From an uncultured Poribacteria bacterium (GTDB lineage Bacteria; Poribacteria; WGA-4E; PCPOR2b), in assembly GCA_958296125.1 (NCBI GenBank), contig OY282444.1, positions 930,001 to 994,000 on the forward strand: 64,000 nt of DNA, given 5' to 3'. Below, piece after piece: positions 2 through 44,785 of the stretch. Made by a program: the position numbers and the translations under genes. How positions within the stretch are numbered: the first letter of the stretch is position 1; the number at the start of each line of letters is the position of its first letter. The notes under the pieces were generated by a model, which saw only the letters and a program-made list of their open reading frames with translations, made no database searches and had not been told where the DNA came from.

Positions 2-199
2 TCCAAACGAGACGGAAAGCGAGATGTGTATGTCATGGATGCCAATGGCGGCGACATCAGAAATCTGAGTAACAATCCCGATGGCAACGATACCCATCCA
101 AGATGGAATCCCTTCTTCGAGCTCCGTTCTGTCGAACCAGGCCAGAAGCGTTTTACAACCCTTGGCGCGGTCAAGCGTGGTGCGCTGTCGGAAGATTAG
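2..199 (+). CDS. C-terminal end of a TolB/PD40-type beta-propeller protein (partial)
   Basis: The window opens inside an open frame that runs to a TAG at 197-199, leaving the last 65 residues. The visible part holds one PD40-like blade, with the pattern DVYVMDANGG-IRNLS-N-DG-D-HPRWNP typical of the WD40-like repeats of TolB. The tail after the blade has no recognisable motif. Proteins of this kind are usually secreted or periplasmic beta-propellers; the N-terminus and any signal peptide lie outside the window, so location and role are open. About 145 bases without a gene follow before the kelch gene. Confidence 0.6.
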   Translation, partial: SKRDGKRDVYVMDANGGDIRNLSNNPDGNDTHPRWNPFFELRSVEPGQKRFTTLGAVKRGALSED

Positions 200-39876: not shown

Positions 39877-39905
39877 TTGATACTTAACGTACGTTATGTT
39901 ATAAT
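39877..39905 (+). promoter_or_regulatory. Promoter with palindromic operator, upstream of the Rieske-fusion operon
   Basis: TTGATA (39877-39882) and a perfect TATAAT (39900-39905) with a 17-base spacer. Inside the spacer lies a perfect 12-bp palindrome, TAACGTACGTTA (39885-39896), placed where a repressor or MerR-like activator would act. The start codon of the first Rieske-fusion gene is about 75 bases further on. Apart from this and the sat promoter, the 580-base region 39406-39987 appears empty. Confidence 0.6.
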
Positions 39906-39987
39906 TGCATCCATCATCTCATTTTTTGGGACGATTTAATCTATAATCGCTATGAAACACAATATTATTGGAAAGGGAAAATAACGC

Positions 39988-41721
39988 ATGGCAACCCAAG
40001 AAGCGAAATGGACAAAATTGGCAGATTTGAGCGAAGTGCCCGTCGGGGAAGCAAAGGCGGTGCAGATAGGCGTAGGACGGAGTATCGCACTGTTCAACGT
40101 GGACAGCAAACTCTATGCAACCGACAACCAATGCCCCCACATGGGCTATCCGTTGACACGCGGGCGCATTCGACATGGCATCCTCACCTGCGATTGGCAC
40201 GAGCGTAGTTTCGACCTTGAAGGGGGAGGTTGTTTCAACGTCGAGTGCGATGACCTGCAAACCTTCCCCGCCGAAGTAAGGGACGGTGAAATCTGGGTGC
40301 AGCTCGGCGATTTGACCTACAGACGGAAGGCAGAGCATCTCAGTCTATTATGGGAAGGACTTCTGAGCGGAGACCGTTGGACAATGTCGAAGGCAATTGC
40401 CCTACTTCTCAAAGGGGGCGTGCCGGAGGTGGAGATTGTCGAGTTGATTCTACGGCATCTTGGGCGACACATCGCTAGCTCGCACGGCTCGGAAGCGGGC
40501 TGGGATGTCGCTCGACTGATGAACGGCCTTTCGGTTGGACGGCGATACAAAGATGCCGATCGACTGATTGCGATGACAACTGCAGCCTGTGCCGCCTCCG
40601 GTGGAGCTGCTGAACGCCTTGAGGTCGTGCCGTTGCCGGATCCGGTGGCTTGGGAGAATATCGAACCATGGGTGCACAGTTTTTCTCGCGACGGTCACTC
40701 CGGGCGTATCGAACGGTGCCTCTTCACCGCCTACACGCTCGGTGATGCGGATAAAATTCTGCCCCTCCTCTTTGAATGTACAGTTGAGCCGCACTTTCTC
40801 GGCTTCCCAGATAATCTCATCTCACTCAGTTACCTCTCGGAAGCGGTCGACGAATTTGGCTGGGAAAAAGCCTTTGAGCTGGTCTTCAATCTCAGTGCCA
40901 AGCTGATTGGGCGTAGGCGCGGCGATCCGCAACGGTTTCGTCGAGATGCCATCGGGATCATGAGAGAGAAACTCCGCGAACTGGATACCTCAGATATCGC
41001 AACGACCAATTATGACGAGGATGCTTTCGTGAGCGCGTTGACAAGCGTGGACATTCAGAAGTCATTCAACGGTGTTGCAGATGCTCTGCAATGTGGCGTT
41101 CAAATTGACCGGCTCATTTCAACGTTGGTGCTCCTCGCCGCCGACCGGATGGCGCGAACACCGGTGAACGTGGATGCCGGTTGGGAGTGTTTGACAACAG
41201 AGCTCAATCTCGCCGCCTCACTCCGCACGGTGCAACGCATCGCTGGTGATGCCGCTGCGGCAAAGGGAATCTTCCACGCAGCATGGCTCATTTTCGACGA
41301 CCGTTGGCTCAACATTCCGTCACGCACACTGACCCCGCCGCCGGTCGAAGCCGCATTCAACGCCTCCAACGAGGAGGAAGGTATCCAACAGATTACCAAC
41401 GCCATTGAAACCCTCAATGTGCCATCGGTCGGTGGACAGGTGCTCGCGTATCTTAATGCTGGCTACTCCGGTGACACCTTGCTCTACGCGCTCGGTAAAG
41501 CTATCCTCTGGAACGATACCGCTACCGAAATCCTCCCCACACTCCGCACCGTTTTCGATGAGTGGAACAATTGTGCCGAACATCCCGCTCGCAATCAACT
41601 GCTTGTCGCACTTGCCCGTTACGCCACCGACATCCGCACGAACAAGGATGGCCAATCCGCCACAACCACGGCGATACGCTTTGCGGAAGGGCGAACAACG
41701 GTGGAGATATTTGAGGATTAA
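39988..41721 (+). CDS. Rieske [2Fe-2S] domain fused to a large unassigned helical domain, copy 1
   Basis: A 577-residue cytoplasmic protein. Residues 1-107 are a Rieske ferredoxin domain: Cys49 and His51 in CPHMGYP, Cys68 and His71 in CDWHE. The glycine that usually follows the second ligand pair is Glu here. Residues 110-577 form a mostly helical region I cannot assign, with blocks shared with the next gene: EGLLSGDxWTxSKA, LxxHxGRH, RWLNI, and a final HPARNQLLVxLARxxTD. A Rieske centre attached to a non-Rieske catalytic partner suggests an electron-delivering fusion oxygenase or reductase; this is inference. GAAAGGGA lies nine bases before the ATG. Promoter at 39877-39905. Confidence 0.75.
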   Translation: MATQEAKWTKLADLSEVPVGEAKAVQIGVGRSIALFNVDSKLYATDNQCPHMGYPLTRGRIRHGILTCDWHERSFDLEGGGCFNVECDDLQTFPAEVRDGEIWVQLGDLTYRRKAEHLSLLWEGLLSGDRWTMSKAIALLLKGGVPEVEIVELILRHLGRHIASSHGSEAGWDVARLMNGLSVGRRYKDADRLIAMTTAACAASGGAAERLEVVPLPDPVAWENIEPWVHSFSRDGHSGRIERCLFTAYTLGDADKILPLLFECTVEPHFLGFPDNLISLSYLSEAVDEFGWEKAFELVFNLSAKLIGRRRGDPQRFRRDAIGIMREKLRELDTSDIATTNYDEDAFVSALTSVDIQKSFNGVADALQCGVQIDRLISTLVLLAADRMARTPVNVDAGWECLTTELNLAASLRTVQRIAGDAAAAKGIFHAAWLIFDDRWLNIPSRTLTPPPVEAAFNASNEEEGIQQITNAIETLNVPSVGGQVLAYLNAGYSGDTLLYALGKAILWNDTATEILPTLRTVFDEWNNCAEHPARNQLLVALARYATDIRTNKDGQSATTTAIRFAEGRTTVEIFED

Positions 41722-41790
41722 GCCAAGCATTCAAACATTCATGGAATTTCTTGAAAACCACTTCAAATAGAACAACAATGGAGGTTAATC

Positions 41791-43539
41791 ATGTTGAGCA
41801 CACCATCCAACTTCGTCAAAGTCGCCGATCTGGACGAACTCGCCGAAGGGAAACCGAGAACTGTTAGAGTTAAAGGGCAAAGCATCGCCCTATTTAAGCA
41901 CAACGGTCACATCTACGCTACCGATAATCAGTGCCCGCACATGGGCTATCCGCTAACACGTGGGCGCGTCCGTGGCGGCGTGCTCACCTGCGATTGGCAC
42001 GGTTGGAGTTACGATATGGGGGGCGGTGGCTGTTTCACCGGCGGTTGCGATGACCTAGCGACCTTCCCCGTCGAAGTGCGTGAAGCCGAAATATACATTG
42101 ATATTGCCAGCGGTGGAAAGAAGCGGGACGATGCCCACTTCCTGCTGCTCCAAGAAGGATTGTTGAGTGGTGACAATTGGACACTCTCAAAGGCGGTTGC
42201 GATTATGCTCGCCAAAGGGGTTTCTGAAGCTGAGGTCCTGAACCGATTGGTGCAACATGCGGGACGACACTTTGTGACCGAGCTTGATGCCGGAGAGGGG
42301 GGATGGCAACTCGCGTATCTGGTCAACGGTGTGAAGGTTGCTAGTCAGTATAAACCGGAAGACCGGCTTATTCCGCTGATGATAGCAGCGTCGGGCGCAT
42401 CGGGCCGGGCAGGGGACCGCCCGGCTGTCACTCTCTTGCCCGGAGAGATTACATGGGAGAAGTTGGAGCGATGGATTCGCGTCTTTTCTGCTGACCGAGA
42501 ATGGGAAGGTATCGAAAAGTGCCTTATCACCGCACGGTGTCTCGGCGGACACGACGATAAAATTATCCCGTTGGCGTATGAATGCGTTGTCGAGCCGTTC
42601 TTCTTGGGACATACCGACAGTCTACTCTATATCGGTTATCTTGCCGAGCTGCTTGAGCAATTCGGTTGGGAGGTCGCCGAAGAGTTGGTTTGCAATCTCA
42701 CAGCGAAAATCCTCGGTCGGGAGCGTGGTGCGCCCGACGAAATTCGGCGTGAGGCAATCAGTAAGCTGGAATCGCTAGAGGATTTTATCGCCGATTTAGC
42801 CGCCAATCCATCCACTCAAACGACCGATTTTGACGAGGACACATTCGCCGCGGGGCTTGTCAGCGGTGACCTCAACCACACATTCGATACAATTACCGAC
42901 GCACTGAAAAGCGGTGTCGATATGAACCGTATTATTTCGACGATGGTGCTTTTGGGGGCAGATCGGATGGCACGCACCCCGGCAAGTATGAGTCCGGGAT
43001 GGTGGGAATTGGGACGGGAGATTTCCCTCGCCTCGTCCATCCGCACAGCATTGCGATTCGCTGGTTTTCAGGCTGCCGCCAAAGCACTCTACCACGTAGC
43101 ATGGCAATTCTTCAGCGACCGCTGGCTTAACATCAGGCAGATACCGCTCAACACACCGAGAGGCACAACCCCATCGGATGCACCAAACGAAGAGGCTGCA
43201 ATTGAGGGTGTCATCAACGCCATCGAAACGATTCAGATGCAGGAGATCGGGCGGATAACGCGACAATACCTCAATCATGACTTTTCCGCTGACCGCCTAC
43301 TGTCCGAACTGGGACAAAGCATCCTCAAGGACGATAACGGTTGGGATATCCTCAACACACTGCGAACCACTTTTGACGAGTGGAAATTGTGCCAAGGACA
43401 CCCCGCTCGAAATCAGTTGCTCGTTGGACTGGCACGTTGGACAACCGATGTGCGTAAAAACACCAACAGCGATTCCGCCGCGAGAACAGCGCAGCGATTC
43501 GCACGGGGTGAGACAGCGGTTGACCTGTATGAACAGTAG
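41791..43539 (+). CDS. Rieske [2Fe-2S] domain fused to a large unassigned helical domain, copy 2
   Basis: A 582-residue tandem paralogue of the preceding gene, alignable along its full length. The Rieske domain has canonical boxes: Cys48/His50 in CPHMG and Cys67/His70 in CDWHGW. The helical part keeps conserved His and acidic positions such as HAGRHF, DFDEDTF, ADRMARTP, ALYHVAW and DRWLNI. Identity is strongest in the Rieske domain and around these blocks, which therefore probably form the second active or binding site. GGAGGT is seven bases before the ATG. The stop overlaps the next gene by 11 bases. With two similar subunits, a hetero-oligomer is plausible. Confidence 0.75.
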   Translation: MLSTPSNFVKVADLDELAEGKPRTVRVKGQSIALFKHNGHIYATDNQCPHMGYPLTRGRVRGGVLTCDWHGWSYDMGGGGCFTGGCDDLATFPVEVREAEIYIDIASGGKKRDDAHFLLLQEGLLSGDNWTLSKAVAIMLAKGVSEAEVLNRLVQHAGRHFVTELDAGEGGWQLAYLVNGVKVASQYKPEDRLIPLMIAASGASGRAGDRPAVTLLPGEITWEKLERWIRVFSADREWEGIEKCLITARCLGGHDDKIIPLAYECVVEPFFLGHTDSLLYIGYLAELLEQFGWEVAEELVCNLTAKILGRERGAPDEIRREAISKLESLEDFIADLAANPSTQTTDFDEDTFAAGLVSGDLNHTFDTITDALKSGVDMNRIISTMVLLGADRMARTPASMSPGWWELGREISLASSIRTALRFAGFQAAAKALYHVAWQFFSDRWLNIRQIPLNTPRGTTPSDAPNEEAAIEGVINAIETIQMQEIGRITRQYLNHDFSADRLLSELGQSILKDDNGWDILNTLRTTFDEWKLCQGHPARNQLLVGLARWTTDVRKNTNSDSAARTAQRFARGETAVDLYEQ

Positions 43540-43885
43540 AGATGCTAGATTGAAAAAACTTACCTGTTATCTAGTGGTAGCTGTCTTATTGCTAAGTCCT
43601 ATTTCAACTGTCCACAGCATAAGTGTGAAAACACAGGGAAAATTGGTACTCGTAGCAATTTTAGGCGGCGTTGCGATTCTGACGAAGTATCTCATTGGAG
43701 GCGATCAACAGGCTGCCGAGGCACTCCACGCCAAACTTGGTCCACCGGAGCGCGTTATCAAGTTTGAGCAGGGGTTTGATCGGTGGCGAATCGAATGGTA
43801 TGGAAATCAAAGATATCTATTCCGAAACAACGTTTTGCAGAAAGAGACCCGCACAAAACCGGATGAGACCTCTCAAGCATTTTAA
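43529..43885 (+). CDS. Small exported or membrane-anchored protein in the Rieske operon
   Basis: A 118-residue protein beginning MNSRDARLKKLTCYLV, with a signal-like hydrophobic stretch about residues 12-28 and a second one about 39-54 (LVLVAILGGVAILTKYLIG). The C-terminal 60 residues are polar: AKLGPPERVIKFEQGFDRW, YGNQRYLFRNN. This tail resembles small outer-membrane-assembly-like folds only vaguely; no family is claimed. Its ATG lies inside the last codons of Rieske copy 2 (11-base overlap) and its end overlaps the next gene by 23 bases, so all are one translationally linked unit. Confidence 0.55.
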   Translation: MNSRDARLKKLTCYLVVAVLLLSPISTVHSISVKTQGKLVLVAILGGVAILTKYLIGGDQQAAEALHAKLGPPERVIKFEQGFDRWRIEWYGNQRYLFRNNVLQKETRTKPDETSQAF

Positions 43886-44633
43886 GTCGTTCAAAAGTTG
43901 GATCTGGCTCTTACCGATCTGCATCTCTGTTTTGATACTCATCGGTTGCAGCAATGATGAAACGCTAATCCAGCCGATGCAGCAGCATACTTTAGAAATT
44001 AGCGAGCTAAACCTGACAAATCAGACATTAAGCACGGGTGGCACGACAACGGTTACCGCAACGTTTGATTATTCAGGGGACGAAGCAGACCTGATCTTCA
44101 CATGGGAGGCAAGCAGCGGGCAGATTGTTGGGAACGCATCAAGTGGGACCTACATTGCGTCGGACGCGGCTGGCATGCATACCATCACCCTAACATTGAC
44201 CGATGGGTTTGAAGTGGAAGAGCGTTCCATTACGGTTGAGGTCGTTGCCCCACAATCACTCTCAATCGATTCTGATACCTATTGGGCAGGTCAAGGCGAA
44301 ACGCTTGTGTTAAAATATCAGGTCAGTATCACACAAATCCTGCGTCAACCCGTCACACTGCGATATACCATCCTTCAGGATGAGGCTAAGACCGGCGCAT
44401 TTTTGAGCGTTGAGGTCAATGGGACTCTGCTTGTCGAAGAAGAGGCGATTGGAGAGGTACAGCCTGTTGAAAGGATAGTCATCGCAGGAGAGGTCGATCT
44501 ATCAGGAATTATCACAGGCCCAGGGACGTATGAAGTGACACTGACTTTGGCTATTGTAAACGCCATCGAACGTGGATGGTTATTACAAAATGCGGAGTTA
44601 ATCGGAGCGGAGGGATCGGCAGTTCGACTGTGA
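43863..44633 (+). CDS. Lipoprotein with an Ig-like/PKD-type domain
   Basis: A 256-residue lipoprotein: after the start MRPLKHFKSFKSW a hydrophobic stretch leads to the lipobox LIGC, so Cys at about residue 29 would be lipidated. Residues 45-135 form one PKD or Ig-like domain (GGTTTVTATFDYSGDEADLIFTW, SGTYIASDAAGMHTITLTL). The rest is beta-rich and unassigned. The ATG at 43863 is preferred over an upstream in-frame ATG at 43695, which would remove the lipobox from the N-terminus and overlap the previous gene extensively. Last gene of the Rieske-fusion operon; the envelope location contrasts with the cytoplasmic Rieske proteins. Confidence 0.6.
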   Translation: MRPLKHFKSFKSWIWLLPICISVLILIGCSNDETLIQPMQQHTLEISELNLTNQTLSTGGTTTVTATFDYSGDEADLIFTWEASSGQIVGNASSGTYIASDAAGMHTITLTLTDGFEVEERSITVEVVAPQSLSIDSDTYWAGQGETLVLKYQVSITQILRQPVTLRYTILQDEAKTGAFLSVEVNGTLLVEEEAIGEVQPVERIVIAGEVDLSGIITGPGTYEVTLTLAIVNAIERGWLLQNAELIGAEGSAVRL

Positions 44634-44785
44634 TAGGATATGTAACCCAAACTCACACCGATGAGACATTCTGGGCACTCGTTGCAAGGAATGGTCGGCT
44701 CGACAGCAACGCGGGCACCTGCCTTGTGTTCCACAGCTGGAAAACCGCCCCAACCCCTCTTAGCAGATTTGGCAGCCTAAGTTAT

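Follow-up and report, generated by a model that had tools for sequence, protein, structure and literature searches.

The Rieske-helical proteins A and B of Poribacteria form a conserved tandem pair and a divergent branch of a widespread family

The 64,000-nucleotide stretch of Poribacteria DNA analysed here (the window) encodes two tandem proteins, A and B, in which a Rieske [2Fe-2S] domain is fused to a helical domain. The pair recurs across the phylum and is homologous to a much wider Rieske-helical family, here called family C, to which a third full-length relative in the same genome belongs. Most of the polar signature that is invariant in family C has disappeared from A and B, although both remain under strong constraint. 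The initial annotation had suggested an undescribed redox system at this place; the helical part is indeed undescribed in Pfam-A, NCBIfam and among PDB sequences, but the system is not isolated, since A and B are a divergent branch of the wider family.

Gene layout and promoter

The four open reading frames of the locus were found exactly where the initial annotation had placed them (Table 1), and the description of A and B as two paralogues, each joining a complete Rieske domain to about 470 residues without assignment, was confirmed. The PF00355 Rieske profile scored above its cut-off in both proteins (E 3e-16 in A and 2e-20 in B), and nothing was detected by Pfam after this domain. No match to a Pfam-A, NCBIfam or PDB sequence family was obtained for the helical half of A/B, and that of C is covered by no Pfam or NCBIfam model. 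The Glu that follows the second ligand pair in A (CDWHE), where B has Gly (CDWHG), had been read correctly, but the position varies by lineage and is occupied in A by Arg (13/20), Glu (5/20) or Gly (2/20), and in family C by His in 105 of the 109 sequences. The lipoprotein encoded by gene 4 carries a PKD/Ig-like domain, for which the Pfam score (PKD, PF00801, E 1.2e-4) was just under the cut-off.

Table 1. Features of the A-B locus (window coordinates)
Feature	Position	Strand	Details
Promoter of the A-B operon	39877..39905	+	sigma-70-type, TTGATA-17-TATAAT; 11/12 consensus matches
Inverted repeat between -35 and -10	39885-39896		TAACGTACGTTA
Protein A gene	39988..41721	+	577 aa
Protein A, Rieske [2Fe-2S] domain	residues ~7-105		ligands C49, H51, C68, H71; all-helical domain ~111-577
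Protein B gene	41791..43539	+	582 aa
Protein B, Rieske domain	residues 6-105		ligands C48, H50, C67, H70; all-helical domain 115-582
Gene 3, small membrane/exported protein	43529..43885	+	118 aa; ATG start; 11 nt overlap with B
Gene 4, lipoprotein	43863..44633	+	256 aa; ATG start; lipobox LIGC; 23 nt overlap with gene 3

The first gene had been credited with its own promoter containing a palindromic spacer, and this feature proved to be real. The half-sites of the inverted repeat, TAAC-N4-GTTA, are kept in all five genomes that have this layout within the family, a second genus included, while the middle bases vary among them. This is the pattern that an operator would show, and the repeat may be regarded as a candidate operator. 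Apart from two weak sites, the combination of promoter and repeat has a single occurrence in its own genome at up to three mismatches, so that a dedicated repressor or activator of the A-B promoter is possible.

Conservation of the A-B pair

Of 59 genomes in the search of relatives, 57 contained the helical domain, and A and B were present together in 58 of the 85 genomes of the phylum searched. The only single-copy cases (A or B alone) came from two genomes, in both of which the copy lies at a contig start. In each of the 20 loci compared, A and B have the same order and strand and are adjacent or near-adjacent, at a distance of 15 to ~2600 bp. The pair spans families and reaches at least one further family of the class, and it was found only in Poribacteria. 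The A-B locus thus recurs in other genomes with its gene order preserved. Genes 3 and 4, on the other hand, were found only in the window's genus, where one or both follow B in three other genomes; gene 4 was not found in one genome of this genus, and the A-B loci of other genera yielded neither gene. Given this difference between the wide spread of A-B and the restriction of genes 3-4 to a single genus, the conserved unit is the pair and not the four genes. The gene order and the overlaps described for a four-gene operon stand, whereas the operon as one functional unit was rejected.

In 15 of the 20 loci, all from other genera and families, A and B are separated or flanked by an ankyrin-repeat gene, which the locus does not have in the window's genus. 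One assembly (G036) contains two A-B pairs, on contigs C17 and C61, with identical match scores, which may reflect either duplication or an assembly artefact.

The wider Rieske-helical family C

A genome scan with C only returned at least 300 relatives, distributed over Poribacteria, Latescibacterota, Gemmatimonadota, Chloroflexi/Thermomicrobiota, Acidobacteriota, Zixibacteria and Bacillota. Plasmid searches added members in haloarchaea, cyanobacteria and proteobacteria, which are annotated merely as Rieske proteins. At least nine phyla of bacteria and archaea have members of family C, with examples in Cytobacillus oceanisediminis, on Priestia megaterium plasmids, in Halorussus and in Nostoc. 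Wherever the contig reaches far enough, the helical domain is preceded by and fused to a Rieske domain. The gene usually stands alone, outside any conserved operon; six of the plasmid contexts read had a gene for a short-chain dehydrogenase or an alpha/beta hydrolase nearby, a neighbourhood that is suggestive only.

In the numbering of the third paralogue of the window's own genome (L059), sixteen positions are invariant in 109/109 sequences: K166, W197, H308, D311, N314, K315, E318, E346, E347, N432, D435, R476, N479, E546, H551 and Q554. The polar signature of the family reads HxxDxxNKxxE, EE, NxxD and ExxxxHxxQ. Full invariance does not extend to H429 and H467, which vary in haloarchaea and proteobacteria, and a His-rich metal site in C is therefore not assured. 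The Rieske ligands C-x-H/C-x-x-H are kept in all 109 C sequences, as they are in all 40 sequences of A and B. Within the C domain, two central segments are similar to one another (hhalign P 1.2e-4), which hints at internal repeats.

Divergently from the third paralogue lies a gene for a 723-aa protein (L059:8307-10475; G000:C1:760306-762474) with the domain order Rieske-GAF-PAS-sigma-54 AAA+-Fis-type HTH, which is a Rieske-fused transcription activator. Such activators are also encoded near C-type genes in L072 and L091 (56-68% identity).

Loss of the C signature under constraint in A and B

The helical domain of A and B is homologous to that of C (hhalign 99.9%, E 4e-37, 448 columns). A and B thus share with family C both this homology and the fusion to a Rieske domain, but not the polar signature. 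D311, N314, K315, E347, N432, D435 and E546 of C are replaced in 40/40 A/B sequences, and H308, H551 and Q554 in most of them; E318, D547 and H467 are retained, of which H467 is not fully invariant in C itself. The tree places A and B in a single clade (100/100 support) on a long branch. Monophyly is fully supported for A and supported at 91/92 for B, and it follows that an old tandem duplication made the pair. The loss of the signature is not decay, because dN/dS is low in A and B (0.056-0.081) and the two proteins have invariant residues of their own. In B numbering these are H116, H156, H435, H537, E286, D515, D391 and N447, all present in 40/40 sequences, and H116, H156 and H537 are specific to A/B as compared with C.

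A second active site had been proposed in the LxxHxGRH, DFDEDTF and DRWLNI blocks of the helical part. In the first block, LxxH (H156 of B) is kept throughout A/B, but the RH that follows varies, and some B proteins, which read GKA here, have no second His. DEDxF was not found in family C, and RWLN occurs in C as well, as R[WF][LF]N. Judged by this conservation, the three blocks alone do not mark a catalytic site, and the catalytic residues of the wider family are likely to lie elsewhere, at positions largely missing in A and B.

Predicted fold and the questin oxidase lead

The Pfam-A, NCBIfam and PDB sequence searches gave no clear match of the C-terminal region to a known oxygenase or hydrolase family. 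AlphaFold2 modelled B with confidence (pLDDT 87.6), as a beta-type Rieske domain followed by helices only. With full-length B as a Foldseek query, all 50 matches listed were to Rieske structures, and for this reason the helical domain of C was modelled alone (pLDDT 90.4). This model had one confident match in the PDB, 8yxs (probability 1.00, E 8.6e-3, TM-score 0.37-0.39), the next one by E-value having a probability of 0.08. The matched protein is AflY, which matches the bacterial questin oxidase profile, as do BTG13 (7y3w) and PaD (8z4q); the latter two were not among the top 50 Foldseek matches of the C domain. Questin oxidases were searched for in the genome's own relatives, Chloroflexi, Bacillota and Acidobacteria, and the profile-profile comparison of bacterial members with C was not significant (probability ~1%). 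In Pfam, the questin oxidase family PF14027 was matched neither by A/B, nor by 35 A/B/C members, nor by 7 C members. Foldseek against viral models returned nothing usable, and the literature on Rieske proteins together with Poribacteria or with questin oxidase yielded nothing relevant. The link between the C domain and questin oxidases may be considered a lead. Enzymes of the questin oxidase type carry out ring cleavage of reduced anthraquinones, and GedK acts as a dioxygenase after the reductase GedF (PMC9890505).

Discussion

Several known systems resemble the proteins described here in part. Within PF14027 (AflY, BTG13, PaD, GedK), AflY is the protein whose fold comes closest to the C helical domain and, by eye, the order of some His motifs looks alike; these enzymes, however, are devoid of a Rieske domain, C scores below the Pfam cut-off of the family, and A and B do not have the His motifs. 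The alpha subunits of ring-hydroxylating oxygenases, like A, B and C, fuse a Rieske domain to a presumed catalytic domain. Their catalytic domain has the SRPBCC fold, whereas the C-terminal part is here all-helical and unrelated by sequence, and no SRPBCC domain with a 2-His-1-carboxylate iron site was matched by Pfam in A or B. Closest in sequence and fold to residues 1-105 are the Rieske-type ferredoxins (BphA3, CarAc, NDO ferredoxin), one-electron [2Fe-2S] carriers which, unlike the A/B fusions, are stand-alone proteins of ~105 aa. Family C has the same Rieske and helical architecture; A and B differ from it in the loss of most of the polar signature and as an obligate tandem pair that was found only in Poribacteria.

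Family C is best read as a Rieske-coupled oxidoreductase, probably an all-helical oxygenase. Its Rieske cluster would most likely feed electrons to a metal, probably iron, in a site of the helical domain built from the four motifs of the polar signature. There, O2 would be activated on an organic substrate, perhaps a quinone- or aromatic-like one. In A and B the Rieske ligands are intact and most of this site is gone, while the fold and the pair-specific residues are held by strong purifying selection, and from this combination the two proteins most likely work as a heteromer. Such a heteromer may carry or sense electrons or, alternatively, perform new chemistry at a remodelled site (H116, H156, H435, H537, E286 and D515 of B). 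The chances of this reading as a whole, of C as well as of A and B as its obligate offshoot, appear evenly balanced. Against it stand the low TM-score of the AflY match and its missing siblings, the non-significant profile comparison with questin oxidases, the variation of H429 and H467 in C, and the fact that A-B has no linked partner reductase. The fusion, the homology to C, the loss of the signature, the pairing, the constraint and the conserved operator-like promoter are shown by the sequences, while cluster binding, the heteromer, the metal, the oxygen chemistry and the direction of electron flow are inferred. More tentatively, and with rather limited confidence, family C may constitute a second, all-helical class of Rieske oxygenases shared by bacteria and archaea and unrelated to the ring-hydroxylating oxygenases, A-B being a derived heteromer whose site was lost or rebuilt.

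A Rieske domain fused to an unassigned helical partner, whose polar signature is strongly conserved across two domains of life and at least nine phyla, represents a major blind spot. Should a non-heme iron site be present in the helical half, it would be a new architecture for Rieske-driven oxygen chemistry. The A-B pair is a natural experiment of active-site loss inside the family.

The pair-specific residues also allow A and B to be viewed as neofunctionalised oxygenases which, rather than carrying electrons, form a new metal site from their own invariant His and acidic residues. The full invariance of these positions, the restriction of three of the His to A/B and the low dN/dS are consistent with such a role, but the same residues occur in both copies, which a simple division of labour between subunits would not need, and this explanation is considered somewhat unlikely. 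A role as redox sensor or scaffold is unlikely; here the Rieske cluster would respond to oxygen or to the redox state, while the helical repeats would dock onto a partner, for instance the ankyrin protein encoded at the locus in other families. This reading draws on the frequency of the ankyrin gene in the A-B loci and on the activator beside the third paralogue, which suggests sensing by Rieske domains in the phylum; the window's genus, however, has no ankyrin gene in the locus, and neither A nor B contains a signalling domain. Least credible, to the point of being highly improbable, is a single system of four genes in which A and B pass electrons to an extracytoplasmic target through the two exported proteins. 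The overlaps that join gene 2 to gene 3 and gene 3 to gene 4, together with the recurrence of genes 3 and/or 4 behind B within the genus, speak for it; against it stand the failure to find genes 3-4 in A-B loci of other genera, the genome of the same genus in which gene 4 was not found, and the lack of an evident signal peptide in A and B, which places them in a compartment different from that of the exported proteins.

Downstream of gene 4, positions 44657-44746 of the window hold the remnant of a zinc alcohol dehydrogenase, 30 aa long and 67% identical to an intact copy. In three genomes of the genus, the gene for the intact enzyme (346 aa) follows the A-B locus.
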